NCBI GenBank assembly: GCA_040756475.1
Contig: JBFLZB010000021.1
Span: 1-38,153 of the forward strand
From: Thermodesulfobacteriota bacterium
Lineage (GTDB): Bacteria; Desulfobacterota; Deferrisomatia; Deferrisomatales; JACRMM01
Reading direction: 5' to 3'
Length of the DNA: 38,153 bases
Positions 16,028 through 29,700 of the stretch are shown one piece after another (the stretch's first letter is position 1; every line of letters starts with the position of its first letter). The notes beneath the pieces were generated by a model. That model was not told the DNA's origin. It did no database searches and saw nothing but the letters and a program-made list of their open reading frames with translations. The translations under genes were made by a program, and so were the position numbers.

Positions 16028-17548
16028 CTACCCCCCCGTCGCGGCCAGGGTCCGGTGGCACTGGGTGCACGCCTCCCGCGGGGAAAGACCCGAGGGGCCC
16101 TGGGGTTCCCCGAACAGGAACTTGTGATCGTGGATGCTGTGGCCCGTGCCGCTGCGGTTTACACCGGGAACGTGGCAGGACTGGCAGTGCACCGCCCGCT
16201 CCAGGTGGCCCGTATGGAGCTCGTTTCCGGGCCAGTCGTTCCGGTGGCACGTGAGACAGTACTCCGAGACCGACATCTTGGGCTTGGCCGAGGGGGAGAG
16301 CTGGCTTCGGAAGTTCTTGCACACGTCGCAGGTCACGCCCCGGGCATCCAGGAAGGAGTCTACCCAGAAGAGCCACTGGCGGTGCCGGTCCTCGTAGGAC
16401 TCGTCCCCGGCAAAGGTTGCGTTGTCCTGGCCGGGCTTGGGAAGCAGGCCTCGGAAGTAGCGGGTCAGGTCCTTCCCCGGCAGGTAACCCAGGGGGTAGC
16501 GGTACTGACCCGTGCGGTCGTGGCCGGTGGTGTGACACGATTGGCACACCATCAGCCGGCGCTCGGGGTCCAGGCGTGCGGGGTTGACGATGGACGCGGG
16601 AGCCTCGCCGCGGGCGTGGGCCCTGCCGGGGCCGTGGCACGCCTCGCACCCGACGCCCAGTTCGGCGAAACGCGGCTCCCCCTTCATCTCGAATCCCGTG
16701 GTGTGACAGCCCTGGCAGTACTGGGTCCAGGGCTTGTCGATCCAGTAGGTGGTATCCCACTCCCCGAGCACCAGGGACCAGATGGGGGCCTTGACCATGA
16801 GCCTGCCCCCTTTTTCCACCACGTACCGCTGGGTCCAGTGGCTCCCCAGCACGTAGCGCACCTCGTCGCGGGAAAACGGGGCGCCCGGGCCGAAGTCGCC
16901 GGCCACGGCGCCCGGATCGGCCTTCGCATCCCGGGTCATGCGGGCGTGGGGCGTCCTGACCCACTCCCGGTAGACCTCGTAATGGCAGCTCTTGCAGGTC
17001 TCCGACCCCACGTACTGGTCGAGCAGGCTCGCCTCCCGCACGTGGAAGCCTTCCGTCGCGAGCTGGGTACGGTCGTGGCACCCCAGGCACAGCTGCCCCT
17101 TGTCGTTTTGGCGGCGCAGGTAGAAGGTGCGGTACTTCTTGCGGCCCGTGAGCAGCGAGAGCACGCGCCGGGAGAGGGCCTCGGCCACGTGGGGCTCGTT
17201 GGCCTCGTAGGGGCCGTGGGGGTCGTGGCAGGTGGCGCAGGTGATGGTGCCGTGGTCGTCCAGGGGCAGGTCCGCCGGAACGCGGGCGCCGGGGCGGATG
17301 TCCACCGGGTGGAGGGTCGAGAGGTCCTTTTCCCGATGGCAGTCCAGGCAGAGGCTCACCACGTCCTTCTGGAGCCGGGCGGCGCCCGGAGCCCCGCCCT
17401 GGCGGGGAACGTCCACGTGGCACCGCAGGCACTGGCCCACCCCCGCAAGGAAGGCGTGGGGGTCGTCCGCAGCCCACGCGGCCCCCCCCGTCCCTGCCGC
17501 CGCTGCGGCCATCACGGCCGCCAGTGCGGCGGCCAGGCGTCTTCTCAT
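16028..17548 (-). CDS. Exported multihaem c-type cytochrome (11 CxxCH + 1 CxxCK)
   Basis: A 506-residue protein with a cleavable signal peptide (MRRRLAAALAAVMAAAAA...AWA). Eleven CxxCH sites start at residues 40, 67, 104, 154, 185, 278, 301, 335, 431, 455 and 494. A CxxCK site (CDVCK, 407-411) lies between the eighth and ninth of these. CxxCK marks the active-site haem of NrfA-type nitrite reductases, so lysine-ligated haem is possible here, but the rest does not look like NrfA. Paired CxxCH and distal histidines (for example GHLERAVHCQSCH) suggest bis-His electron-transfer haems. The ATG overlaps the HAMP protein stop by 4 bp. It probably carries electrons or reduces a small oxyanion in the periplasm. 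Confidence 0.9.
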   Translation of the reverse strand: MRRRLAAALAAVMAAAAAGTGGAAWAADDPHAFLAGVGQCLRCHVDVPRQGGAPGAARLQKDVVSLCLDCHREKDLSTLHPVDIRPGARVPADLPLDDHGTITCATCHDPHGPYEANEPHVAEALSRRVLSLLTGRKKYRTFYLRRQNDKGQLCLGCHDRTQLATEGFHVREASLLDQYVGSETCKSCHYEVYREWVRTPHARMTRDAKADPGAVAGDFGPGAPFSRDEVRYVLGSHWTQRYVVEKGGRLMVKAPIWSLVLGEWDTTYWIDKPWTQYCQGCHTTGFEMKGEPRFAELGVGCEACHGPGRAHARGEAPASIVNPARLDPERRLMVCQSCHTTGHDRTGQYRYPLGYLPGKDLTRYFRGLLPKPGQDNATFAGDESYEDRHRQWLFWVDSFLDARGVTCDVCKNFRSQLSPSAKPKMSVSEYCLTCHRNDWPGNELHTGHLERAVHCQSCHVPGVNRSGTGHSIHDHKFLFGEPQGPSGLSPREACTQCHRTLAATGG

Positions 17549-18132
17549 GGCTCGAACCGAAACGCTCCGAGGGCCCGGCGCAGCCCCTCGCAGGCTTTGG
17601 CGGCCCGGGTGCGGTCCGCCTCGTCCACCCCTGCCAGGCCGTCCGCCCAGTCCTCCAGCTCCCGAGCCGCCTCGTGAACCGCCAGGAGCTTTTCGCGCAG
17701 ACCCCGTGTCATGTCGTTCATGGCCTCGGTCAGGGGCTGGAGTTCGTCGCCCTCCCGCAGGCGGGTCACCAGGGTCAGGTCCCCCTCGCCCACAGCCTTG
17801 AGGTTCACGCGGAAGCGGTAGAGCGGACCGCCGATCCGGTGGCTGTCGTACAGGGTGAGGACCACGGCCAGGGCGGCCACCACCCCCATGGAGGCGAACG
17901 ACGACACCAGCACCGCCGGCAGGAGGAGCTCCCAGGAGCTTCGCGCCTGGTAGTGGGCGCTGTAGAAGGCGCGCCCGAACTCCTGGTCCGCCAGAAGGTA
18001 CAAGAGCCCCCCGGTCAACGCCGTGCCCGCGACCACCAGAGCGGTCATCTTGGCGATGAACCGGAACTGGAAGGCCTTCTCTATGAAGAGGATGCGCCGC
18101 TTGGGGATGCTCCGCCGGATTGTCTCTATCAT
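17545..18132 (-). CDS. Two-helix HAMP-domain membrane protein
   Basis: A 195-residue protein. A short positively charged N-terminus (MIETIRRSIPKRRILFIEK) precedes TM1 (about 28-48), a small periplasmic loop (about 49-70) and TM2 (about 71-93). A HAMP-like domain follows (IGGPLYRFRVNLKAVGEGDLTLVTRLREGDELQPLTEAMNDM), then a helical tail. There is no kinase, GGDEF or methyl-accepting output domain, so it is not a complete sensor. The overlap with the cytochrome gene (ATGA) suggests the two work together, perhaps as a membrane anchor or signalling partner of the cytochrome. The ATG has GGGAGAGG upstream. Confidence 0.83.
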   Translation of the reverse strand: MIETIRRSIPKRRILFIEKAFQFRFIAKMTALVVAGTALTGGLLYLLADQEFGRAFYSAHYQARSSWELLLPAVLVSSFASMGVVAALAVVLTLYDSHRIGGPLYRFRVNLKAVGEGDLTLVTRLREGDELQPLTEAMNDMTRGLREKLLAVHEAARELEDWADGLAGVDEADRTRAAKACEGLRRALGAFRFEP

Positions 18133-18345: not shown

Positions 18346-18762
18346 ATGAAAATCGTCGCCGCCGCGGCAGCCGCTGCGCTCCTCCTCGCGTACGGGTGCC
18401 TCCTGGGCCACGTGACCCGGGAGATCCCTCCACCCGGGGGGTGCGACCAGTGCCACCGCTACACGATCGCGGGGCGGTGGGAGGTCGGCATCGCCCCGGT
18501 GGCCCTGGGTCGGGAGGGAGGCATTCCAGAGGACACGGACATCGTTCTGCGGGAACTTCGGGAGGTGCCCTTCCACCGGGAGGTTCCGGCCAGGCGGCTT
18601 CAGGTCTTCGCCGAGGCAGCTCCCCGGGAGGCCGTGGGAGACCCGGAGACGGGAATCCAGTGCTTCGTGTGCCATCGCTCCCCGGGGCCCCCCCACCAGG
18701 AGCTGCGGGGAACGTTTCCCCACCCCTGGGGCCGGGCTGGCGGCGGAGCCGAGAAGGAGTAG
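18346..18762 (+). CDS. Dihaem c-type cytochrome, probable lipoprotein
   Basis: A 138-residue exported protein. The N-terminus is hydrophobic and ends in AYGC (C18), a passable lipobox, so membrane anchoring through lipid is likely. Two haem-binding sites are visible, CDQCH (33-37) and CFVCH (106-110), separated by a charged middle region. The start has AAAGGAGG upstream. It is divergent from the HAMP-multihaem cytochrome operon and may exchange electrons with that cytochrome. I do not recognise a named family. Confidence 0.82.
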   Translation: MKIVAAAAAAALLLAYGCLLGHVTREIPPPGGCDQCHRYTIAGRWEVGIAPVALGREGGIPEDTDIVLRELREVPFHREVPARRLQVFAEAAPREAVGDPETGIQCFVCHRSPGPPHQELRGTFPHPWGRAGGGAEKE

Positions 18763-18814: not shown

Positions 18815-19423
18815 ATGAGCCCGAGTCCTGCGCGCATCCTTCTCGTGGACGACGAAGAGGCCCTCCTCCAGACCCTCGCGCGGGCTGCCCGGGGTTGCGG
18901 CTACGAGATCGACACCGCCCAAGACGGCGCGCAGGCCTGGGAACGGCTGGGCGCAAGCCGGTACGACCTGGTGGTCACCGACCTGGTCATGCCGGGGATG
19001 GGCGGACCCGAGTTGATGGAGAGGATCGGGGCGGAGGGGCTCGCGACGCGGATGATCGTGATTACCGGGTTTGCGACCCTGGATGCCGCCGTGGACTGCC
19101 TGCGAAAGGGCGCCACCGACTTCCTGGTAAAGCCCTTCCCGGTGGAGGAGTTCCTGGGAAGCGTGGAGCGCGTCCTGCACCGGGGGACTCCGCCGGGCAA
19201 CGGCAGCCCCGCGTGGGAGTCGATTGCGACGCGCTACGGGCTGACGCGCAAAGAGACGTTGGTGCTGGAAGCCTTCTACGCCTCGGGCCGGACCAACCGG
19301 GAGCTGGCCCAAGAGCTTTCGCTGAGCCCCCACACGGTCAAGTCCCACCTCAAGGCGGCCTTCGTCAAGCTCGGTGTATCGAGCCGGACCCAACTGCTCC
19401 AGCTCCTGCGCGCAGAGGCCTGA
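18815..19423 (+). CDS. NarL/FixJ-type response regulator
   Basis: A 202-residue regulator with an intact receiver (D12/D13, phosphoacceptor D56 in LVVTDLVMPGMGG, VITG, LVKPF). A LuxR-type helix-turn-helix follows at about 135-200 (YGLTRKETLVLEAFYASGRTNRELAQELSLSPHTVKSHLKAAFVKLG). No histidine kinase gene is adjacent, so its phosphodonor is unknown. It lies 52 bp after the dihaem lipoprotein gene, possibly in the same transcript, and may control the surrounding cytochrome genes. It converges on hsp20 with only 30 bp between the stops. Confidence 0.92.
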   Translation: MSPSPARILLVDDEEALLQTLARAARGCGYEIDTAQDGAQAWERLGASRYDLVVTDLVMPGMGGPELMERIGAEGLATRMIVITGFATLDAAVDCLRKGATDFLVKPFPVEEFLGSVERVLHRGTPPGNGSPAWESIATRYGLTRKETLVLEAFYASGRTNRELAQELSLSPHTVKSHLKAAFVKLGVSSRTQLLQLLRAEA

Positions 19424-19453: not shown

Positions 19454-19900
19454 TCACTCCACCCGAACCCGGACCCCTGCCGTCCCGGGCGGCATCCGTT
19501 TGGGCAGGGTGACGCGAAGCACCCCGTCCCGGTAGCCGGCGCTCACCGCCCCGGCGTCGACTCCGGCCGGGAGCCGGAAGGTGCGCTGGAAGATGCCGTT
19601 GGGCCTCTCCACCCGGTGGTAACCCAGGGCGGGGGCGCCCGTATGGAGCGGGCGCTCGCCCCGGAGGACGAGCAGGTCGCCCAGGACCTCCAGGTGGATG
19701 TCGTCCTGGGCCATTCCGGGGAGCTCGGCGGCGAGGATGAAGCTCTCGCCGGTTTCGTAAATGTCCACGGCGGGAGACCAGGGGCTGGGCCCCGCCTCCC
19801 CCTGCCGCCGTTCCCGGCCGGCGTGTTCGTCGAAGAGCCGGCACAGGGTCTCCTGCAACCCCAGGAGGTCCCGCAGCACCTGGTCGGATGCCTTGCCCAT
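19454..19900 (-). CDS. Small heat shock protein (Hsp20 family)
   Basis: A 148-residue chaperone with an alpha-crystallin domain from about residue 43: WSPAVDIYETGESFILAAELPGMAQDDIHLEVLGDLLVLRGER, then ERPNGIFQRTFRLPAGVDAGAVSAGYRDGVLRVTLPK. It should hold unfolded proteins as an oligomer; the C-terminal IxI-type motif appears as VRVRV. The ATG at 19900 has GAGGAGG upstream and lies about 50 nt below a good promoter. No heat-shock operator of the CIRCE type is visible. Confidence 0.93.
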   Translation of the reverse strand: MGKASDQVLRDLLGLQETLCRLFDEHAGRERRQGEAGPSPWSPAVDIYETGESFILAAELPGMAQDDIHLEVLGDLLVLRGERPLHTGAPALGYHRVERPNGIFQRTFRLPAGVDAGAVSAGYRDGVLRVTLPKRMPPGTAGVRVRVE

Positions 19901-19948
19901 GGATCGCCTCCTCGTGCCGCCACCTGCCCGCGGGCGGCCTGCCGGGGG

Positions 19949-20026: not shown

Positions 20027-20908
20027 ATGCACCGCAAGCTCTCCAAGATTTTCTACGAGGTCCGCGCGCCGCGCCTCACCTGGAACGACGTGGGGGGGTT
20101 CGCCGACGTCAAGCAGACCCTGCGCGAGATGGTCTGCCTGCCCCTCCAGAAGCCCGAGCGCCTGGCGCGACTTGGCCTGGAACGGCCGGCGGGCGTGATG
20201 CTGTGGGGCCCCCTCGGGGTGGGCATCACCATGCTCGCGGAGGCCGCCGCCACCGAGGCGGGCGCGAGCTTCGTGTACGTCTCGGGCCAGGAGATGCTGG
20301 GCAAGCCCGGGGAGGTACGCGACGCCTTCCACGACGCCGAGCACGAGGCCCCCTGCGTACTCTTCGTCTCCGACTGCGAGTGGCTCGCCCCCCGGGCCGG
20401 CTGCTCCTACGAGTGGGGTTCCGGCAACCTGCGGGGCATCCCCCCCACCTTCGCCGACCCGGCGCTCACCCGGGTCTTCGTGGAGGAGGTAGACCGGATC
20501 GTGGGGCACCCCGGGGTGATGCTCATGGGCTCGTGCTACCGCATCGACACGGTGGACCAGGCCGTCATCAAGGAGAAGAAGCGGTTCAACCGCAAGGTCT
20601 TCGTGCCCCCCCCCCGGGAGGCGGACCGCCGCGGCATCCTCGACATCTACATGAACCGGATGCCGAGCCTCGACCCGGCGGTGGACCGGGACGAGCTGGC
20701 ACGGCGCACCGAAGGGTACGTGGGATGGGACATCGAGAGCCTCTGCAAGCGGGCCACCCTCGAGGCCCTCAAGGCCGACCGGGACCAGGTGAGCCGGGAG
20801 GACTTCGAGGCCGCCCTGGGCCAGATCACCCCCTGGCTCACCCCCGACATGACGGCCAAGTACTGGGAGCTCCACCGCAATGACTGCCCCCACCACTACG
20901 CCTTTTGA
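20027..20908 (+). CDS. AAA-family protein with degenerate ATPase site
   Basis: A 293-residue single AAA domain of the Cdc48/FtsH-like type: LTWNDVGGFADVKQTLREMVCLPLQKPERLARLGLERPAGVMLWGPLG opens the fold. The Walker A loop reads GPLGVGIT, with isoleucine (ATC codon) for the catalytic lysine. Walker B reads VLFVSDCEW in place of hhhhDE. Sensor 1 reads MGSCYRID where ATNRPD is usual. The arginine-finger area (KRFNRKVFVPPP) and the helical lid (GYVGWDIESLCKRATLEAL) are kept. Intact fold with all catalytic motifs altered points to a pseudo-ATPase, perhaps a scaffold or adaptor. It overlaps the FmdE-like gene by 29 bp and heads a five-gene operon. Confidence 0.88.
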   Translation: MHRKLSKIFYEVRAPRLTWNDVGGFADVKQTLREMVCLPLQKPERLARLGLERPAGVMLWGPLGVGITMLAEAAATEAGASFVYVSGQEMLGKPGEVRDAFHDAEHEAPCVLFVSDCEWLAPRAGCSYEWGSGNLRGIPPTFADPALTRVFVEEVDRIVGHPGVMLMGSCYRIDTVDQAVIKEKKRFNRKVFVPPPREADRRGILDIYMNRMPSLDPAVDRDELARRTEGYVGWDIESLCKRATLEALKADRDQVSREDFEAALGQITPWLTPDMTAKYWELHRNDCPHHYAF

Positions 20909-21374
20909 GCCCGGGTTCTTCCAGGCCCTTGCCCGCCTCCACGGCCACCGCTGCCCCATGTCGATCCTCGGGGCGCACCTGGGGCTCGCCGCCCGGGCGG
21001 CCCTGGGGGCGGGGCCGGGGCAGCGCCTGACCGCCGTCTATCGTCACCAGACCTGCGCCCTGGACGGCATCCAGCTCGCCACCGGCTGCACCGCGGGCAA
21101 CGGCAACCTCCAGGTGCACCGGCGCGGCGAGCACCGCCTGCTCCTGTGTCGGGAGGGCTCCGCCTCCGGGGTGGAGGCCGAGCTCACGGAGCACGCCCTG
21201 GCCCGAGGCCAGGCCTACGGTGGGCTGAGAGCCGAAGCCGAGGCCGCGCCGCCGGGCACTCCGGAGCGGCTCCGGGCAGACGTGGCGCTGGAGGACCTCC
21301 TTCGGGAGCTGGAGGCGGCTCCCGCCGAGGAGCTGGTCTCGGTGCGGGCGGCGTCCGCCGGGGGAGGCCCCTGA
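20880..21374 (+). CDS. FmdE-family protein
   Basis: A 164-residue cytoplasmic protein of the FmdE type, named after a gene beside molybdenum formylmethanofuran dehydrogenase. The signature is present: LHGHRCPMSILGAHLG (H21, H23, C25) and TCALDGIQLATGCTAGNGNL (C59, C70). These conserved cysteines and histidines suggest metal or cofactor binding. The C-terminal zinc-ribbon of longer members is missing, and the last 60 residues are acidic and helical. It overlaps the AAA gene by 29 bp and is followed after 1 bp by the permease. The role is unproven; metal handling for the permease is a reasonable guess. Confidence 0.85.
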   Translation: MTAPTTTPFEPGFFQALARLHGHRCPMSILGAHLGLAARAALGAGPGQRLTAVYRHQTCALDGIQLATGCTAGNGNLQVHRRGEHRLLLCREGSASGVEAELTEHALARGQAYGGLRAEAEAAPPGTPERLRADVALEDLLRELEAAPAEELVSVRAASAGGGP

Positions 21375-21375
21375 C

Positions 21376-22326
21376 GTGGGCACCCTGTGGGCGATCCTCG
21401 ACGTGCTGTGGGCCGAGGCATCCCGGATGGCCTGGTTCACCCTGCTGGGGGTGACGCTGGCCGCCCTGATCAAGACCTACCAGCTCGACCGCAAGGTGCG
21501 CCAGTACGTGGGCCGGGCCGGGGTCTGGGGCATCCTCGTCGCTACGGCGGTGGGGACGCTGAGCCCCCTGTGCTCCTGCGGCATCCTGCCGGTGGTGATC
21601 CCCATGGCGCTCGCCGGGGTGCCGCTCCCGCCCCTCATGGCGCTGCTCATCACGAGCCCCGTGATGGATCCCGCGTCGTTCGTCCTCACCTGGGGAGGGG
21701 TGGGGGAGGCCCTTGCCTGGTGGAAGCTCGGGGGCGCCCTCGCCCTGGGGCTCGCCGCGGGACTGGGCACCCTTGCCCTGGAGCGCCTCGGCCTCCTGGG
21801 CGAGAATCTGGTCCGCCTCAAGCCCGTGTACACCCCCGACGGCCAGCTCGCCCCGGCTTACGAGATCGCGTGCACCAACGGGTTTCGGGTGCGCACCATG
21901 GCCGTAATCCCCCGGGAGAGCAAGCTCCTCTTCTTCTTCGACCGCTTCCGCGACGTGGGGCTCTTCGTGGGCCTGTGGGTGGGGCTCGCCCTGGTGTTCG
22001 AGGCCCTGGTCCAGGTGCTGGTGCCGGTGCAGTGGGTCACCTGGCTCGTGGGCCAGGAAGGGCCGCTCTCGGTGCTTGCCGCGAGCGCGGTGGCCCTGCC
22101 CCTGCCCCTGCATCAGATCCCGGTGGTGCCGATCCTGGCGGGCCTCCAGGCCAAGGGCATCGCGCCGGGGGCAGATCTCGCCTTCCTCCTGGCCGGACCG
22201 GTCACGAGCCTGCCCGCCATGGCGGCCCTGGCCGCCATATTCCGCCCCCGGGTGCTCGGGCTCTACGTGGGGATCGGGCTCGGCGGGGCAACTCTCCTGG
22301 GCCTCCTGCGCCTCGCCCTGTCGTGA
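21376..22326 (+). CDS. DUF318/ArsP-type permease with CSC motif
   Basis: A 316-residue polytopic membrane protein with about eight helices. The family hallmark LSPLCSCGILPVVIPMALAG places a CSC motif at residues 66-68, followed by LLITSPVMDPASF; a second-half repeat ends in AGPVTSLPAMAAL. Relatives include ArsP (organoarsenical efflux) and SO_0444-type Cu/Zn efflux permeases, so a soft-metal or metalloid substrate is plausible. A central soluble loop (LKPVYTPDGQLAPAYEIACTNG) separates the halves. It starts at a GTG 1 bp after the FmdE-like stop and overlaps or abuts the next lipoprotein gene. The substrate cannot be deduced from the sequence. Confidence 0.87.
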   Translation: MGTLWAILDVLWAEASRMAWFTLLGVTLAALIKTYQLDRKVRQYVGRAGVWGILVATAVGTLSPLCSCGILPVVIPMALAGVPLPPLMALLITSPVMDPASFVLTWGGVGEALAWWKLGGALALGLAAGLGTLALERLGLLGENLVRLKPVYTPDGQLAPAYEIACTNGFRVRTMAVIPRESKLLFFFDRFRDVGLFVGLWVGLALVFEALVQVLVPVQWVTWLVGQEGPLSVLAASAVALPLPLHQIPVVPILAGLQAKGIAPGADLAFLLAGPVTSLPAMAALAAIFRPRVLGLYVGIGLGGATLLGLLRLALS

Positions 22327-22334
22327 GGAGTCCC

Positions 22335-23420
22335 GTGCCCGCCCTTCGCCGCCGTGCCCCGTTTCCGCGCCTGCTCGCCGCTGTGGCCCTCGTCGCACTG
22401 ACAGGCTGCGCGGGAACCGGACCTGTTCCCGAATCCGCCCCTCCCTCCGCGCCGGGGCGCGTGCTTCTCGAGGGAAAGGTCTCCCTGGGAGGGGCAGGGG
22501 CCGAAGGCGCCCAGGTCTTGCTCTTCGCACCTCACTTCCACCTCGCCCCGGAAGGCCGCCCGGAGGCCCGGGCCGTGAGCGGCACCGATGGGACCTTCCG
22601 CCTGGAGGCGCCGCCCGGCTCCTATCTCCTGCTGGCCCGCCGGGGTGAGCTCTTCTCGTACTTCGGGCGCAACCCCGTGCGGCTCGCCGGGCAGCTCACG
22701 GGCGTGCACCTTCCCCTGGTACCGGCCCATGGGGTAACGCGAACCGCCTGCGAACCGGGAGAGGAGCGCATGGAAGGCCGGGTGCTCGACGCAGGGAAAC
22801 CGGTGGCGGGCGCCCAGGTCTTCGTGTACCTGGACGCGGCGAGGGGCTTTCGGGGGCCGGGCTACGCCCTCTCGGAGCCCACCGGCCGCGACGGCGCTTA
22901 CTCCGTCCCCCTGCCCCCGGGCACCTACTTCGCGGGCGCCCGGCTGCGCACCGGGGGGCCCAGGACCGGGGCACTGGAACCGGGAGACCACTTCGGCGTC
23001 CTCCCCGAGTTCCCCCTCCTCCTGCGGGCCGGCGAGTGCGCCCGCGGGGACATCGAGACCGTTGAGGTACCGGGGCGGGAGCAGCAGTCCCGCTTCCAGG
23101 GCCGTTTCGCGCGCCTGGAGGGGCGCATCCTCGACGGAGCCGGACAGCCGGTAGCGGGAGTGCGGGCCTGCCTGTACGAGACCCCCCACCTCCTGGACCG
23201 CCCCGCCGTCGTCTCGGAGCCCACGGGGCCCGACGGCCGTTTCGTCCTGGAGACCCCCCTGTCCGGGCTGTTGTACCTGGGGGCCCGGGAGGCCCTGGGG
23301 GGTCCGCCGGTCCCGGGGGAGCGGGTCGGGTTCTACCGCGGCCCCAGGGGCCCGGCCCTGGAGGTCGCCCCGGGCGGACGCCTCGCGGACCTCACCGTGG
23401 TGCTCCAGGTGACGCCGTGA
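22335..23420 (+). CDS. Lipoprotein with three carboxypeptidase-regulatory-like repeats
   Basis: A 361-residue secreted lipoprotein. The signal ends in VALTGC, a good lipobox. Three related beta-sandwich repeats follow, beginning LLEGKVSLGGAGAEGAQVLL, RMEGRVLDAGKPVAGAQVFV and RLEGRILDGAGQPVAGVRAC. Each has a later DGtFrle / DGAYSVP / DGRFVLE segment and, in the first two, PPGSY/PPGTY. Such CarboxypepD_reg-like domains usually serve in binding or protein contact, not catalysis. The GTG at 22335 has GAGGAG 5 nt upstream; a GTG at 22323 overlapping the permease stop is the alternative. Surface or periplasmic partner of the permease is inferred from the operon. Confidence 0.82.
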   Translation: MPALRRRAPFPRLLAAVALVALTGCAGTGPVPESAPPSAPGRVLLEGKVSLGGAGAEGAQVLLFAPHFHLAPEGRPEARAVSGTDGTFRLEAPPGSYLLLARRGELFSYFGRNPVRLAGQLTGVHLPLVPAHGVTRTACEPGEERMEGRVLDAGKPVAGAQVFVYLDAARGFRGPGYALSEPTGRDGAYSVPLPPGTYFAGARLRTGGPRTGALEPGDHFGVLPEFPLLLRAGECARGDIETVEVPGREQQSRFQGRFARLEGRILDGAGQPVAGVRACLYETPHLLDRPAVVSEPTGPDGRFVLETPLSGLLYLGAREALGGPPVPGERVGFYRGPRGPALEVAPGGRLADLTVVLQVTP

Positions 23421-25258
23421 GAGCCGGTGTCGCCGTCGCCCTGTGCCTTTGCCTTTCCATGTTCGGCTGCGCGGGAGCGCCCGGGGGCCCGCGCTCGGAA
23501 GCGCCGCCGGGCCGCACGGTCTGGCAGGGCCAGGTGCGCATCGCCGAGGACATCACCTTTCCCCGGGGCTCCGAGCTCGTGCTGGAGCCCGGAACGGTGG
23601 TGCGTTTCGCCTTCCGGGACGACGACGGGGACGGCTGGGGGGACGCATCTCTCCGGGTCGAGGGCGCGCTGATTGCCCGAGGAACCCCCGAGGAGCCGGT
23701 GGTCTTCACCTCCGAGAACGCCCCCGCCGAGCCGGGCTCCTGGGGGGAGATCCGCATCGACTTCGGCTCCTTCCACCTCTCCCACGTCCTCGTCGAGGGA
23801 AGCACCCGGGGACTCCATACCCACTTTTCCCGGGGCCGCGTGGAGGACTCGGTCTTCCGCCGCAACGTGGACGGCACCCGGTTCGGGGAGTCGGCCGTGG
23901 AGGTGGAGCGCTGCCTCTTCGCGGAGCACCCGGGCAAGGCCATGAACTCCCGCCGCTGCCGCAACCGGGTCATGGGCAACCTCTTCCGGGGCAACCGCCA
24001 CGGGATCTTCCTCTTCGAGGCCGACGCCGGATCCGCCTTCGAAGCCAATCACTTTCGGGACAACGAAGCGCCCTTCTACCTGGGAGACTTCTTCGAGGGC
24101 ACGGTGGACGCCGGCACGAACGACTGGGGCGGGGCGCTCCCGGCCGCGGCTCCGGACAACGAGGCGGCCCGCATCCTGGCGGCCTTCGCCCCGGCTCCCG
24201 AGGCCGGTCCCCGGGGCTGGCCCCTCCTGGAGGAGCTCTGGCGCGCGGAGCTCGGGGGGTTCGTGGACGCCCCCCCGGTACCCGCCGACGAGGGCGTCTA
24301 CGCCGCGAGCTGGAACGGTGCCCTCCTTCGCCTGGGCTTCCTGGACGGGGCGGTCCTCGCCTCGGTCAGCCTTCCCGACGCGGTGGACGCCCCGCCGGCG
24401 CTGGGCCCCGGAGTCGTGGCGGCGGCGTGCTGGGACCGGGGGTTGTATCTCCTGCGGCGGGGCAGCCTGGAGGTGCTCGACGTCCACGCCGAGGCCCCTT
24501 CTCCCGCCGACGACCACCGGCAGTCCGGGCCGGTCTTCCTCGGCACCACCCTGGTGGCCGCCGGCTGGTCCGGCACCGTGCGGGCCTTCGAGACCTCGGG
24601 GGGGCGCCTGGAGCCCCTCTGGTCGTTCCCGGCCGGGGGGCCCTTTCGGGCCGACCTGCGCACCGCCCGGGCGGGGGCCCGCACGCTGATCCTCGCTCCG
24701 TCCCAGGACGGGAACCTCTACGCTCTCGACCCGGTGTCGGGCCAGCCCGCCTGGGTCTACAGGGCCGGGGCGCCGCTCCTCTCCGCGCCGGCCGTAGGGG
24801 AAGAGACCGTCTACCTGGCGGACCGGGCCGGAACCCTCCACGCCGTGGCCCTGGCCGGCGGCACGGCGCGCTGGACTCGGCGCCTCGCGGGAGGCGCGTG
24901 GTATGCCCCCCCCCTCCTCCTGGACGAGGTCCTCTACCAGGGGGAGGACTCGGGCACCCTGTGGGCCATCGCGGCCGGGACCGGGCAGGTCCTGTGGCGC
25001 CGTCCCCTGGGAGCCGGAGTCCGCGCCCGGCCCGCCGAGGCCTCCCCGGGCCTGCTGGCCGTGCCCACGGTGGGGGGCCGCCTGGTTCTCCTGGACGGAG
25101 AAACCGGCTTCGAGCGCGATGCCCTGTCCCTGGGCGAGCCCTTTCTCTCGACCCCCGAGGAACGGGGAGGGCGGGTGTTCCTGGGGGGAAGGGACGGGCA
25201 CCTGCGGGCCCTGGGGGTGCGGCGGCTGCCGGCGTCGGGGGAAGGAAGGGCTCGCTGA
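23417..25258 (+). CDS. Lipoprotein joining a parallel beta-helix to a PQQ-like beta-propeller
   Basis: A 613-residue lipoprotein (lipobox SMFGC, C18). Residues about 40-240 resemble a right-handed beta-helix (ITFPRGSELVLEPGTVVRF, then LSHVLVEGS, VEDSVFRRN, VMGNLFRGNRHGIFLFEA, FEANHFRDNEAPFYL). Residues about 270-605 contain propeller-type repeats: VYAASWNGALLRLGFLDGAVLASV, NLYALDPVSGQPAWVYRAG, TLHAVALAGGTARWTRRLAGG, TLWAIAAGTGQVLWRRPLGAG, HLRALGV. PQQ-like repeats without obvious cofactor ligands often act as scaffolds, as in BamB. The GTG start overlaps the previous lipoprotein stop by 4 bp (GTGA). It is the last gene of the five-gene operon. No enzyme activity can be assigned. Confidence 0.85.
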   Translation: MRAGVAVALCLCLSMFGCAGAPGGPRSEAPPGRTVWQGQVRIAEDITFPRGSELVLEPGTVVRFAFRDDDGDGWGDASLRVEGALIARGTPEEPVVFTSENAPAEPGSWGEIRIDFGSFHLSHVLVEGSTRGLHTHFSRGRVEDSVFRRNVDGTRFGESAVEVERCLFAEHPGKAMNSRRCRNRVMGNLFRGNRHGIFLFEADAGSAFEANHFRDNEAPFYLGDFFEGTVDAGTNDWGGALPAAAPDNEAARILAAFAPAPEAGPRGWPLLEELWRAELGGFVDAPPVPADEGVYAASWNGALLRLGFLDGAVLASVSLPDAVDAPPALGPGVVAAACWDRGLYLLRRGSLEVLDVHAEAPSPADDHRQSGPVFLGTTLVAAGWSGTVRAFETSGGRLEPLWSFPAGGPFRADLRTARAGARTLILAPSQDGNLYALDPVSGQPAWVYRAGAPLLSAPAVGEETVYLADRAGTLHAVALAGGTARWTRRLAGGAWYAPPLLLDEVLYQGEDSGTLWAIAAGTGQVLWRRPLGAGVRARPAEASPGLLAVPTVGGRLVLLDGETGFERDALSLGEPFLSTPEERGGRVFLGGRDGHLRALGVRRLPASGEGRAR

Positions 25259-25596
25259 TTCGCTGCCGGGGCCCGATTCTCGCACCCCGCGCGGGTCGAC
25301 TGGGCCCACTGGGCCCAAATCCACCACCAACTCTAGGGGCGGGGTCCGGGAGCCCTGGAGAGGAACCCCGTGCCGCTTCGACCGAACTGGGGCAGCTCAG
25401 CCGAAACCAGCGAAGCTCGGCGCACCAGTGCCCTCGGAGACGCCGCCTCCGAACATCGCGGATTGCGGGGCGGAGCGCAAGGGCTCCCGGACCCCGCGTG
25501 CAAACCAAGCGGTGGTTCCAGGCACGCTAGACACCGCGAACGATTCCAGGTTACAAAGGCCCCTTCCCCGCCGCGCCTTCGCCAAGGGAGACCGCC
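25259..25596. other. Intergenic region holding tandem TGGGCCCA palindromes and element copy C
   Basis: The 338 bp between the pseudo-AAA operon and the OpuAC-like gene contain two TGGGCCCA palindromes (25301-25308 and 25310-25317) right at the edge of repeat copy C. About 80 bp with no recognisable promoter follow. I see no gene here. Confidence 0.6.
25318..25517. repeat. Dispersed inverted-repeat element, copy C
   Basis: Arms GCGGGGTCCGGGAGCCC (25339-25355) and GGGCTCCCGGACCCCGC (25481-25497) enclose 125 nt. The inner pair CCCCGT (25366-25371) with GCGGGG (25465-25470) keeps pairing through one G-U. It is closest to copy A, sharing CTCGGCGCACC, CGGAGACGC and AACATCGCGGATTGCGGGGC. All three copies have the same orientation on the given strand. 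Confidence 0.85.
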
Positions 25597-26181
25597 GTGA
25601 GATCAATCCTCCTGCACCTTGCCCTGACCGCAGCCCTGCTCCTGGGCCTTGCCCTGCCCCCCTTCCCGGCCGCCGCCTGTGTGGGAAAGACCCTGGTGGT
25701 CGGCTCCCTGGAGACCCCCGAGGGGCGCTTGGTGGCCCAGCTCCTGGCGATCCTCATCAACGAGCGCACCGGAACCACCGTGAAGATCGCCGACTACCCC
25801 GACCCCGAGGCCCTGCATCGGGGGCTCGCCGCCGGCGACGCCGACATCGCGGTGGACTTCACGGGCCCGGCCCTGGCCCGGCTGGGCCTGCCGGTCCCGC
25901 CGGTGGGAGACGAGGCCTACCAGGCCGCCAAGGCAACCTACCTGGAGCGCCTCAACCTGGTCTGGCTCCCGCGCATGGGCTACGCCGGAAACTCCGGGCA
26001 GGTCCCGGCCGACGCCGCTCCCGTGGCCCGAAAGGACACCCTGAAGAAGTTCCCCGCCCTGCCCCGGCTCATCGCCCGCACGGAAGGCCTGCTCTCGGAC
26101 GACGTCCTTCGGGGGCTCTCGGGTGCGGGAGAACCGGCCAAGACCGCCCGGGAGTTCCTCCGGGAGAAGAAGCTGATCTGA
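25597..26181 (+). CDS. Exported one-lobe OpuAC-like solute-binding protein
   Basis: A 194-residue protein with a signal peptide (LLHLALTAALLLGLALPPFPAAA) and a domain resembling the first lobe of glycine betaine binding proteins: KTLVVGSLETPEGRLVAQLLAILINERTGTTVKI, then PEALHRGLAAGDADIAVDFTGPAL. Full OpuAC proteins are about 270-300 residues, and the second lobe is absent. No ABC permease or ATPase gene is nearby, so it is probably not a transporter subunit. It starts at a GTG. It lies 13 bp before a Tat-exported DUF362 gene and probably shares its transcript; the function is unknown. Confidence 0.75.
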   Translation: MRSILLHLALTAALLLGLALPPFPAAACVGKTLVVGSLETPEGRLVAQLLAILINERTGTTVKIADYPDPEALHRGLAAGDADIAVDFTGPALARLGLPVPPVGDEAYQAAKATYLERLNLVWLPRMGYAGNSGQVPADAAPVARKDTLKKFPALPRLIARTEGLLSDDVLRGLSGAGEPAKTAREFLREKKLI

Positions 26182-26194
26182 TCGGGAGGCTGCC

Positions 26195-27124
26195 GTGAAC
26201 CGCTCCGTCCTCAACCGCCGCCGTTTCCTCGCCCGCCTCGCCCAGCTCGGGTTCGTCGCCCTGGGCCCCCTGGGGTTTCCCCTCCTGCGCCCGGGCCGCG
26301 CCCGTGCCCAGACCCCCGCCTCCCCCCAACCCGTGGCCGTGGCGCGGGGCCCCGACGCCGCAGCCCTGGTCCGGGAAGCCGTGGGAAAGCTCGGCGGCAT
26401 GGGAGGCTTCGTGAAACCGGGAGACCGGGTCGTGGTGAAGCCCAACATCGGCTGGGACCGCACCCCGGAAGAGGGGGCCAACACCCACCCCGAGGTGGTC
26501 GCCGAGCTGTGCCGCTTGGCCGTCGAGGCGGGAGCGCGGGAGGTGCGGGTCTTCGACCGCACGTGCAACGACGGGCGCCGCACTTACGAGCGCAGCGGCA
26601 TCCGCGCCGCGGTGGAGGGCCTGGAGCGTGCTCCGGTGCAGCTCGAGCACGTGCGCGACGAGTGGTTCGAGGTGACGGACCTGCCGGGGGCTCGGGAGCT
26701 CTCCCGCTGGCCCCTCTACCGGCCCGCCCTGGCGGCCGACGTACTCATCAACGTCCCCGTGCTCAAGCACCACGGGCTCACCCACGTCACCATCGGGCTC
26801 AAGAACCTCATGGGGGTCATGGGAGGCAACCGGGGCCGGGTGCACCAGGGGATCGACCAGAATCTCGTCGACCTCAATCGGGCGGTGCGCTCCCACCTCA
26901 CGGTGGTGGACGCCACCCGCATCCTCCTGCGCAACGGCCCCCAGGGCGGGGGCACAGACGGCGTGCGGACGGCCAACCTGGTGGCCGCCTCGGCCGACGT
27001 GGTGGCCGCCGACGCCTGGGGCTCCCGGGAGTTCGGGGCCGATCCCTTTCAGATCGCTCACGTGCGCCTGGCCCACGAGCAGGGCCTGGGGGTCGCCGAC
27101 CTGGGCCGGATCGAGATCCTGTGA
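26195..27124 (+). CDS. Tat-exported DUF362 protein
   Basis: A 309-residue protein with a twin-arginine signal (NRRRFLARLAQLGFVALGPLGFPLL). The DUF362 domain is recognisable: VKPGDRVVVKPNIGWD, THPEVVAELCRLAVEAGAREVRVFDRT, LINVPVLKHHGLTHVTIGLKNLMGVMGGNRGRVHQ, LTVVDATRIL and ADVVAADAWGSREFG. The fused ferredoxin domain of some family members is not present; the next gene supplies the iron-sulfur part. Tat export implies folding, perhaps with a cofactor, before secretion. Its stop overlaps the next gene by 4 bp (GTGA). The biochemical role of DUF362 is not established. Confidence 0.87.
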   Translation: MNRSVLNRRRFLARLAQLGFVALGPLGFPLLRPGRARAQTPASPQPVAVARGPDAAALVREAVGKLGGMGGFVKPGDRVVVKPNIGWDRTPEEGANTHPEVVAELCRLAVEAGAREVRVFDRTCNDGRRTYERSGIRAAVEGLERAPVQLEHVRDEWFEVTDLPGARELSRWPLYRPALAADVLINVPVLKHHGLTHVTIGLKNLMGVMGGNRGRVHQGIDQNLVDLNRAVRSHLTVVDATRILLRNGPQGGGTDGVRTANLVAASADVVAADAWGSREFGADPFQIAHVRLAHEQGLGVADLGRIEIL

Positions 27125-28662
27125 AGCTTCCGCTGCGGCGGGGCGTCCAGGGGGTGCTCCTCCTGGGGTTCCTCGCGCTCTTCGCCCGCACCGCCTATCG
27201 GGGCCAGGAACTCCTGGACTGGCCCGTCCACCTCTTCTTCCACCTGGACCCCCTGGCGGCCCTGGCCGCGGCCCTGGCGGGGGGGCTCGCCTCCCTGTGG
27301 GCCGTGACGTGGCTCGGAGCCGGCCTCCTGCTCGTTTTCACGGCCCTGCTCGGGCGTTTCTTCTGCGGGTGGGCCTGCCCCCTGGGTACCGCCCTGGACC
27401 TGTCGGGGGGCGGGCTGCGCCGCCTGAGGGGCGGTCGGCGCGGGAGCTGGCGCCCCCCGGCCCACACGGCTCCGGCGCTGCTGGCGGCGCTCCTGGCAGC
27501 GACTGTTCTGGGGCTGCCGCTCCTGGGACTCTTCGATCCCCTGAGCCTTTTCCTGCGAAGCCTCACCCTGACCCTCCATCCGGCCCTGGACGCAGGGGCC
27601 AAGGGCCTCCTGGCCCAGCTCTCCCTCTCGGACTCCGAGAGGCTGGCCGCCCTGGGAGACACCCTCTACCGGGCTGCCGAGCCGGTGCTCGCCTTCGGGC
27701 GACCCGCCTTTCTCCTCGCAGGCCTCACCACCCTCGTGTTCCTCGCGGTGGTGGCCCTGGAGCTGGTGGCCCCCCGCACCTGGTGCACGAGCCTGTGCCC
27801 CCTGGGCGCGCTCCTGGGGGTGTGCGCCCGGCTCTCGCCCCTTCGCCGCCGCCGCTCGGACCGCTGCGGACCCTGTACCACGTGCGCCGCCCGCTGCCCC
27901 ACCGGCGCGGCGGCCCCCGAGGGCGCAGCGGACCCCTCCCTGTGCCTCCAGTGCGGCGGGTGCGAGCAAGCGTGTCCTTCCGGCGCCCGCCGGCCCGAGC
28001 TCGCCGCCCCCGGCCTGTCGCTTCCCGCCTCACCGGGGCGCCGTGCCCTCCTGGCCTCGGCGGGAGCGGGGGCGCTGCTGGCCCTGGGACCCAGGGTTCG
28101 GGCCGAGGAGGCGGAGCGAGCGTGGGACTTCCTGCGCCCCCCCGGGGCCGTGGACGAAGCGCAGTTTCGCCTGCGCTGCATCCGGTGCGGCGCCTGCATG
28201 CGGGTCTGTCCCCAGGGGGCCCTCCACCCCGCCCTGCTGGAGGCGGGCCTGGGAGGGCTGTGGAGCCCCCGGCTCGTGCCGCGGCTCGGCTACTGCGAGT
28301 ACCACTGCCGCCTGTGCGGACAGGTGTGCCCCACCGGCGCCATCCGATATCTGGAGGAGGGGGAGAAGGAGACGACGGTCATCGGGCTCGCGGTCTTCGA
28401 GCAGGACCGGTGCCTTCCCTACCGGGCAGCGGAAAACTGCATGGTCTGCGAAGAGCACTGCCCCACGGCACCCAAGGCCATCGTCTTCCACGAGGAGGTC
28501 CGTGCCGACGCCCTGGGAGTCTCGAAGCCGGTCAAGGTGCCCCGGGTCGTGGAGGAGCGGTGCGTGGGCTGCGGCATCTGCGAGACCCGGTGCCCCCTGC
28601 CCGGCCGCAGTGCGATTCGCGTCACACGGGAACGCCCGGGAGATTTATCCCTTTTCTTCTAG
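27121..28662 (+). CDS. NapH-NapG-like polyferredoxin fusion
   Basis: A 513-residue membrane iron-sulfur protein. The first half is NapH-like: about four to five helices, CGWACPLG and WCTSLCPLG loops, then two 4Fe-4S motifs (CGPCTTCAARCP, CLQCGGCEQACP). At about residue 310 a second export-like segment (GRRALLASAGAGALLALG) begins a NapG/MauM-like half with CIRCGACMRVCP, CRLCGQVCP, CMVCEEHCP and CVGCGICETRCP. About six clusters are therefore possible. NapH and NapG are normally separate proteins that pass quinol electrons to periplasmic reductases. Here they are fused and coupled to the DUF362 gene (GTGA overlap). No nap reductase gene is present. Confidence 0.85.
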   Translation: MKLPLRRGVQGVLLLGFLALFARTAYRGQELLDWPVHLFFHLDPLAALAAALAGGLASLWAVTWLGAGLLLVFTALLGRFFCGWACPLGTALDLSGGGLRRLRGGRRGSWRPPAHTAPALLAALLAATVLGLPLLGLFDPLSLFLRSLTLTLHPALDAGAKGLLAQLSLSDSERLAALGDTLYRAAEPVLAFGRPAFLLAGLTTLVFLAVVALELVAPRTWCTSLCPLGALLGVCARLSPLRRRRSDRCGPCTTCAARCPTGAAAPEGAADPSLCLQCGGCEQACPSGARRPELAAPGLSLPASPGRRALLASAGAGALLALGPRVRAEEAERAWDFLRPPGAVDEAQFRLRCIRCGACMRVCPQGALHPALLEAGLGGLWSPRLVPRLGYCEYHCRLCGQVCPTGAIRYLEEGEKETTVIGLAVFEQDRCLPYRAAENCMVCEEHCPTAPKAIVFHEEVRADALGVSKPVKVPRVVEERCVGCGICETRCPLPGRSAIRVTRERPGDLSLFF

Positions 28663-28681
28663 TCAATAGTGCTGCCCGTTT

Positions 28682-28710
28682 TTGACAGGACGGGTGAGCC
28701 GCTCTACCCT
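28682..28710 (+). promoter_or_regulatory. Sigma70-type promoter for cysK
   Basis: TTGACA (28682-28687), a 17-nt spacer and TACCCT (28705-28710). Transcription would start near 28717, about 50 nt before the cysteine synthase ATG. Confidence 0.68.
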
Positions 28711-28767
28711 ACCGCCCTACCCGGCACACCGGCCTCCACCGGGGCCCGATCGAACGAGGAGCACGAC

Positions 28768-29700
28768 ATGGCGCGCATCTTCGCTGACAACAGCCTGAGC
28801 ATTGGCAACACCCCGCTGGTTCGGATCAACCGGATCTCCCTGGGTCTCCCCGCGACGATCCTGGCCAAAGTAGAGGGGCGAAACCCGGCCTACTCGGTCA
28901 AGTGCCGGATCGGGGCCAGCATGATCTGGGATGCGGAGAAGCGGGGCGTGCTCAAGCCGGGCGTCCGGGTCGTGGAGCCCACGAGTGGAAACACCGGCAT
29001 CGCGCTCGCCTTCGTCTGCGCCGCCCGGGGGTACCGCCTCCTCCTCACCATGCCCGAGACCATGAGCCTGGAGCGCCGAAAGATGCTCGCCGCGCTCGGG
29101 GCCGAGCTCATGCTGACCCCGGGCAGCGAGGGCATGGGGGGCGCCATCCGGCGCGCCCAGGAGATGGCCGACGCCGACCCCGAGGGGATGTTCCTCCCCA
29201 ACCAGTTCAAGAACCCCGCCAACCCCGAGATCCACTTTCGCACCACCGGGCCGGAGATCTGGAACGACACCGACGGCAAGATCGACATCCTCGTCGCGGG
29301 AGTCGGCACCGGGGGCACCATCACGGGCGTGAGCCGCTACATAAAGACGGAGAAGGGCAAGGCCATCCGGTCGGTGGCGGTGGAGCCCGCGGCATCCCCG
29401 GTGCTCTCGGGGGGCTCCCCCGGGCCCCACAAGATCCAGGGCATCGGCGCGGGCTTCAAGCCCGACGTGCTCGACCTGTCCCTGGTGGACGAGGTCCTTC
29501 AGGTCACCGACGAGGAGGCCTTTGCCTTCGCCCGCCGGCTCGCCCGGGAGGAGGGGATCGTCTCCGGGATCTCCTGCGGCGCCGCCATGGCGGCGGCGGT
29601 CCAGGTGGCCTCCCGCCCCGAATCGGCCGGCAAGACCATCGTCGCGATCCTCCCGGACTCGGGCGAGCGATACCTCTCCACGGCGCTGTTCGAGGGGTAG
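28768..29700 (+). CDS. cysK: Cysteine synthase A (O-acetylserine sulfhydrylase)
   Basis: A 310-residue PLP enzyme that makes cysteine from O-acetylserine and sulfide. The PLP lysine is K45 in [11 protein letters not shown]. The substrate loop [12 protein letters not shown], the phosphate loop [10 protein letters not shown] and the C-terminal serine region ([14 protein letters not shown]) are all present. The ATG has GAGGAG upstream and its own promoter, so it seems independent of the NapH-NapG operon. No serine acetyltransferase gene is near. Confidence 0.95.

Follow-up and report, generated by a model that had tools for sequence, protein, structure and literature searches.

GeoRSP is defined in NCBIfam by three proteins only, a PqqD protein (TIGR04302), a radical SAM protein (rSAM, TIGR04303) and a SPASM protein (TIGR04304), and as far as we found it has so far been a named orphan radical SAM/PqqD system without product, target or phenotype. 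A second point of comparison is the assembly of the Nos copper site, which uses a beta-helix protein, a permease, a ferredoxin and lipoproteins. We analysed a stretch of 38,153 nucleotides from a Thermodesulfobacteriota bacterium of the order Deferrisomatales (assembly GCA_040756475.1, contig JBFLZB010000021.1), here called the window, which carries an operon for a pseudo-AAA protein, an FmdE-domain protein, a permease and several envelope proteins (Table 1). This operon and the GeoRSP locus are two loci of one system. The linkage between them is strong, and they belong together because of conserved gene order, co-occurrence and physical linkage. Considering that the operon travels with the GeoRSP radical-enzyme system, its probable place is in an undescribed pathway by which a redox or metal component is made or installed in the envelope.

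An earlier note on this DNA, made from the sequence alone, had described five co-directional genes at 20027-25258 of the forward strand as one functional unit. These genes are present, with the overlaps and the 1-bp gap that it had given (Table 1), and their unity is borne out by conserved order and co-occurrence in relatives. The limits of the unit were too narrow, however, as three or four more genes lie downstream, encoding an OpuAC-like binding protein, a DUF362 protein, a NapH-NapG fusion and CysK. An envelope operon of 8 or 9 genes, of which these five form the beginning, runs from 20027 to 28662 and, with cysK, to 29700. The note knew of no described system of this composition, and none was found in the open-access literature, a search that left most subscription papers and all bioRxiv preprints outside; in that literature no paper joins FmdE, DUF362, NapH, NosD or GeoRSP in this way.

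Association of the operon with GeoRSP

Co-occurrence was counted in 247 genomes drawn evenly from the phylum. Of these, 13 had the AAA protein, all of which also had the OpuAC-like protein (18/247, five without the AAA protein), and 12 of which had GeoRSP_rSAM (17/247, again with five others). G200, the sole AAA genome of the 13 without GeoRSP_rSAM, is an assembly 81% complete (G000 is the window's own genome, and the G and L numbers denote the other sampled genomes and loci). The Fisher p values were 6e-18 for AAA with OpuAC and 1e-15 for AAA with GeoRSP, related genomes being counted as independent. Beyond the window's order the counts were 4/4 and 4/4, with p about 1e-6 and 5e-7, respectively, kinship being uncorrected here too. 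Eighteen further AAA genomes had the OpuAC-like protein in 16 cases and GeoRSP in 12. In G176, the only sampled genome of the window's order without the AAA protein, the binding protein and NapGH were absent too.

A scan for relatives with the AAA protein gave 48 orthologous loci, most of them from Deferrisomatales and Desulfuromonadales (Geothermobacter, Malonomonas, Geopsychrobacter, Geoalkalibacter, Desulfuromonas) and a few from metagenome-assembled genomes labelled Rokuibacteriota, Actinomycetota or Proteobacteria. The order AAA-FmdE-permease was kept in 30-odd of the 48 independent relatives, which argues against chance, and many of the remaining loci are cut by a contig end; of the loci without such a cut, most have FmdE and the permease after AAA. 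AAA, FmdE, permease and lipoproteins were found together in relatives, the co-occurrence on which the earlier note had made its proposal depend. The nearest loci (L038-L041), one of them named Deferrisomatales, have upstream genes in common with the window. The complete window order was observed in L038, L040 and L041, of which the first two extend to cysK and the last stops within NapGH; cysK is joined to the operon in Deferrisomatales only. In Desulfuromonadales the operon reaches about 17 genes, with the OpuAC-like, DUF362 and NapGH genes near its end, and the additions are a CRTAC1-type FG-GAP protein, an 800-aa protein with a spermidine-synthase-like domain, several CarboxypepD_reg and beta-helix proteins, DUF3467 and DUF3047. 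Geothermobacter hydrogeniphilus HR-1, a culturable host, has the genes from AAA through DUF3047 in a single run (L050), and GeoRSP as well. At L039:8763-12241, also from Deferrisomatales, only AAA, FmdE, permease and cysK lie together, with the OpuAC-like and GeoRSP genes elsewhere in the genome; the triad of AAA, FmdE and permease can therefore stand apart from the lipoproteins.

The two loci are joined in at least three genomes, whereas the window's genome has them on separate contigs. In G027 the AAA gene lies about 11 kb from GeoRSP_rSAM in a single co-directional run, in the order AAA, OpuAC-like, beta-helix, DUF362, beta-helix proteins, PhnD, TPR, YedE, permease, PqqD, rSAM and SPASM. 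In G255 and G257 the distance from the OpuAC-like gene to rSAM is 10-11 kb on one contig, and the AAA gene is next to the OpuAC-like gene. Three genomes without AAA (G025, G063 and G153) have the OpuAC-like gene clustered with the GeoRSP radical SAM, PqqD and SPASM genes, and these clusters also hold PhnD, TPR, YedE, NosD-like and CarboxypepD_reg proteins and an ArsP_1 or NicO permease. All three GeoRSP families scored above cut-off in G025.

The GeoRSP locus of the window's genome is on contig 83 and encodes an rSAM, a PqqD-type protein, a PhnD-type binding protein, a TPR protein, a YedE-type transporter and a NosD-like beta-helix protein. The rSAM matches TIGR04303 over its full length with 393.8 bits (cut-off 400, exceeded in many other AAA genomes), and the adjoining PqqD-type homologue reaches 56.6 bits in TIGR04302 (cut-off 100; 102.4 bits in the AAA genome G225). 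No SPASM protein was found beside the rSAM gene in the window's genome, and in AAA genomes TIGR04304 has weak homologues only (79.6 of 300 bits in G225; 28% identity in G027). Since these scores are under the cut-offs, the rSAM and PqqD of the window's genome are best called GeoRSP-like; the neighbourhood is nonetheless the same. The YedE-type selenium/sulfur transporter is above the cut-off of TIGR04112 (321 bits against 200), which together with cysK in the operon suggests a chalcogen theme. Adjoining this locus there is an FAD (flavin adenine dinucleotide)-linked oxidase (L187:11382-12788, minus strand), and a protein of similar length has the same position in G176 and G151. It was also possible to see, in the GeoRSP-only clusters, a protein with a weak ResB-like C-terminus following the OpuAC-like gene (L163:12188-13105, L164:10722-11648, L165:10465-11391, L195:207-1151), which has 23% identity to the start of the beta-helix protein after OpuAC in the G203 cluster.

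Proteins encoded in the operon

The AAA protein leads the five-gene unit in conservation, with a median identity to the window of 69%; the values were 52% for the permease, 39% for FmdE and about 35% for the lipoproteins, and 34-53% for the co-operon partners other than cysK. Its start, M-H-R/K-x-L, has the same position in orthologues, and its fold is nearest to CDC48/p97 and PAN (PDB profile E 2e-95; predicted local distance difference test, pLDDT, of the model 93). We aligned 49 orthologues, 52-81% identical to the window. In every one of them the Walker A Lys is replaced (GPLGxG[I/M]TM), the Walker B DE reads SD and the sensor-1 Asn is replaced inside an invariant CYR, which upholds the earlier description as a pseudo-AAA protein. 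Pore loop 1 is deleted, and VCP-like ATPases have five residues more in this region. All sequences have the arginine fingers RFNR, and each complete one carries the invariant C-terminal tail DCPHHYxF. By this motif pattern the family keeps ring-interface residues and not those of ATP hydrolysis or threading, and the protein would neither hydrolyse ATP nor thread substrates. It is unusual that a family without catalysis or threading residues everywhere is yet the most conserved of its unit. Because the motif losses are invariant and pore loop 1 is deleted in spite of this conservation, a scaffold role is suggested. The likeness to CDC48/p97 D2 and PAN thus covers the AAA fold, the lid and the arginine fingers, while the window family differs in the lost catalytic residues and pore loop 1 and in the extra tail.

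The arginine fingers, invariant despite the dead ATP site, could also mean that the protein enters an active AAA ring (e.g., FtsH) as a regulatory subunit and targets envelope substrates, in which case the operon would be a quality-control module and not a cofactor route. Other AAA proteins of the genome, 35% identical over 250 residues, could be the active partners. However, none of the clusters showed a protease gene or an active AAA gene, the pore loop is missing, and the AAA gene co-occurs most strongly with GeoRSP and the one-lobed binding protein, so that we consider a quality-control module very unlikely.

In the FmdE protein the motifs HGHxCPMS and tCAxDG are conserved. It resembles the FmdE of formylmethanofuran dehydrogenase operons in the domain and in the HGHxCP and CAxD motifs, but the C-terminal zinc ribbon is absent. 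Formylmethanofuran chemistry was rejected, as the window's genome has no formylmethanofuran dehydrogenase B subunit above cut-off. A DNA segment elsewhere in the genome (G000:C204:731-942, L002) is 73% identical to part of the window FmdE gene and is probably an FmdE paralogue.

The permease belongs to the ArsP_1 family (PF03773, 107.5 bits against a gathering score of 32.3) and has a conserved SPLCxCGILP motif, of which SPLCxCG is common to the ArsP_1 exporters ArsP, SO_0444 (Cu/Zn) and SaoE. Unlike these, it stays far below the NCBIfam equivalog cut-offs (SO_0444, 89.7 of 300 bits; SaoE, 81.2 of 325 bits), and no associated resistance or Sao genes were seen. The SAO (organomercurial) system was rejected on the SaoE score, and no other Sao protein turned up. 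In the metal or metalloid route that the earlier note had proposed, the metal is conjectural. A soft-metal or metalloid efflux operon would have FmdE and AAA sensing or buffering the metal, the permease exporting it and the lipoproteins binding it outside, with no cofactor made. The permease family with its weak similarity to SO_0444 and SaoE, the Cys/His motifs in FmdE and the AAA tail, and the NicO nickel/cobalt-type permease that takes the permease's place in a sister cluster all fit such an operon. Against it, the permease falls well short of the equivalog cut-offs, the cluster showed no metal regulator, no P-type ATPase and no resistance gene, and efflux would not account for the links to the radical SAM enzymes, to NapH-NapG and YedE, and to the many beta-helix lipoproteins. 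Taking both sides into account, efflux seems unlikely.

The OpuAC-like protein matches lobe I of OpuBC/EgtUC-type proteins in two pieces, lobe II being skipped (PDB profiles, to 9e-30), and its model agrees with them on lobe I only (Foldseek template-modelling (TM) score about 0.75). A Cys stands at the predicted mature N-terminus of each of the 23 aligned sequences (Cys28 in the window, ACVGKT), and their C-terminus is FLKxxxLI or a close variant; an ERTG motif is also present. The lobe I fold and sequence are common to it and the OpuBC/OpuAC/EgtUC solute-binding proteins, which it differs from in having neither lobe II nor an ABC partner, and a closing two-lobe trap is therefore not expected. 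A solute-binding protein cut down to one lobe is unusual. The NapH-NapG fusion presumably oxidises menaquinol, as its domains indicate.

The largest spacing in the run is that at 25259-25596, in which a scan for promoter-like and terminator-like sites gave nothing above shuffled background. A putative small heat-shock gene of the HSP20 type is divergent from the AAA gene, at a distance of about 120 bp. The upstream group of 11-haem cytochrome, HAMP protein and 2-haem protein is kept, together with the response regulator, in the Deferrisomatales loci L038-L040 and partly visible in L041. Plasmid carriage was rejected, PLSDB giving no match at E 1e-50.

Table 1. Genes of the operon and of the region upstream of it, in window coordinates.
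Feature	Position	Strand	Match, spacing and remarks
11-haem c-type cytochrome	16028-17548	-	upstream of AAA
HAMP protein	17545-18132	-	upstream of AAA
2-haem protein	18346-18762	+	upstream of AAA
Response regulator	18815-19423		
Putative small heat-shock gene, HSP20-type	19454-19905	-	
Pseudo-AAA protein, 293 aa, CDC48/PAN-like single AAA module with lid	20027-20908	+	Pfam AAA 1.4e-15 and AAA_lid_3
FmdE-domain protein, 164 aa	20880-21374	+	Pfam FmdE 5.5e-23; 29-bp overlap with AAA gene
ArsP_1-family permease, 316 aa	21376-22326	+	Pfam ArsP_1 9.7e-31; 1-bp gap after FmdE
CarboxypepD_reg (transthyretin-like) lipoprotein, lipobox LTGC	22323 or 22335 to 23420	+	CarboxypepD_reg 4e-13; start GTG 22323 (4-bp GTGA overlap) or GTG 22335 (8-bp gap)
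Probable lipoprotein, NosD-like right-handed beta helix then PQQ/BamB-like beta-propeller	23417-25258	+	PQQ_2 2.4e-29; NosD/Beta_helix weak; 4-bp overlap
One-lobed OpuAC-type solute-binding protein, exported, 194 aa	25597-26181	+	after 338-bp gap
DUF362 protein, Tat (twin-arginine translocation)-type signal RRRFL	26195-27124	+	13-bp gap after OpuAC-like gene
NapH-NapG fusion: membrane ferredoxin joined to periplasm-type ferredoxin	27121-28662	+	4-bp overlap with DUF362 gene
cysK, cysteine synthase (pyridoxal-phosphate family)	28669-29700	+	6-bp gap after NapH-NapG

Proposed role of the two-locus system

Our best explanation, which is a tentative one, is that the operon may serve the GeoRSP system as its module for envelope export and assembly, in a way that resembles Nos-type metal-centre assembly to some degree. 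The GeoRSP enzymes would act in the cytoplasm, where they would make or alter a small product or metal ligand, perhaps one that contains a chalcogen. The pseudo-AAA protein would be a ring scaffold whose Cys/His tail holds this product, or metal-loaded FmdE, at the permease, and the permease would pass the product outward. In the periplasm the one-lobed binding protein would take it to the beta-helix, propeller and transthyretin-like lipoproteins, and NapH-NapG and DUF362 would give menaquinol electrons for reduction or assembly, an electron input that is suggested by the NapH/NapG homology. It is speculative that the pseudo-AAA protein delivers the product to the permease and that this product is a cofactor or metal ligand; the export signals, the quinol oxidation by NapH-NapG, the transport by the permease and the chalcogen theme are predictions from sequence. 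The tie with the operon gives GeoRSP a direction, from cytoplasm to envelope, through a permease, an electron input and surface lipoproteins.

Several points weigh against this explanation, the kinship of the genomes behind the p values among them. The analysis brought no product, substrate or metal to light, and the direction and cargo of the permease are conjectural. No precursor peptide was found next to the GeoRSP genes, where the conserved small open reading frames were antisense shadows of conserved genes or PqqD itself. Several GeoRSP genomes have no AAA protein, which is thus not essential to every GeoRSP version; for one of them, G203, the lack may be an artefact because the contig ends right at the OpuAC-like gene. 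The NapGH fusion was present in 105 of the 247 genomes (E 1e-60), often beside DUF362 without AAA (e.g., L120-L142). Since it is far commoner than the AAA protein, NapGH-DUF362 appears to be a general module recruited here, and its role may be general.

The hosts and their cytochromes lead to another possibility, in which the operon would be extracellular electron transfer machinery. The lipoproteins would build a scaffold on the outer surface, with its wiring through NapH-NapG, and the GeoRSP product would be a redox cofactor or cross-link in that scaffold. Relatives of metal reducers are among the hosts (Geothermobacter, Geopsychrobacter, Geoalkalibacter, Desulfuromonas), a quinol-oxidising ferredoxin is encoded inside the operon, and cytochromes with 8-23 haems adjoin the cluster in several lineages, the window included. 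Multihaem cytochromes are common in these genomes, however, and the adjacent ones cover a wide range of sizes and haem numbers; most Desulfuromonadales loci lack one in the vicinity, and the operon has no porin-cytochrome conduit gene. Electron transfer machinery is likewise unlikely in our judgement. Large multihaem cytochromes adjoining AAA/GeoRSP clusters were seen in four lineages (L106:15761-19999, 23 CxxCH; L192:112-3624, 18; L198:8630-13315, 11; L165:17259-19655, 8), a tally that does not take background frequency into account. As core members of the system they were rejected, because the neighbouring ones differ widely and most loci have none.

The export and assembly explanation can be carried further, to a two-locus system of metal-respiring and related anaerobes in which the GeoRSP radical SAM/PqqD pair would make a cofactor that contains a chalcogen or a metal. 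Its delivery to quinol-fed beta-helix, propeller and transthyretin-like surface proteins, via a dedicated permease and a one-lobed binding protein, would fall to the dead AAA ring and its Cys/His tail. In this extended form the explanation is doubtful; if true, such an assembly line for envelope redox cofactors would be of a new kind.

Comparison with known systems

Every part of the system, except the roles of the last two genes, falls in a known domain family. Nitrous oxide reductase maturation (NosR/NosGH, NosD, NosFY, NosL) is alike in the NosD-like beta helix, the NapH/NapG-type ferredoxin, the membrane permease and the lipoproteins. It differs in that an ArsP_1 permease and a dead AAA protein replace the NosFY ABC transporter, and the OpuAC-like, DUF362, FmdE and GeoRSP partners of the window have no Nos counterpart. 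A nitrous oxide reductase system was rejected for the window's genome, in which clade II NosZ gave only a 22-bit partial match against a cut-off of 625, clade I NosZ lying outside that search. Because clade II NosZ is absent and the ABC transporter is replaced, the system was not filed as Nos.

With respect to GeoRSP, none of the three defining proteins is encoded in the window, and the pseudo-AAA/FmdE/permease operon lies outside the definition. The GeoRSP clusters of other lineages nevertheless hold the same OpuAC-like, NosD-like, CarboxypepD_reg and permease families as the window operon, and that of G025 an FmdE protein as well. The combined system may be seen as an extension of the GeoRSP kind, with a real chance of standing as a new kind of system once its product is known.

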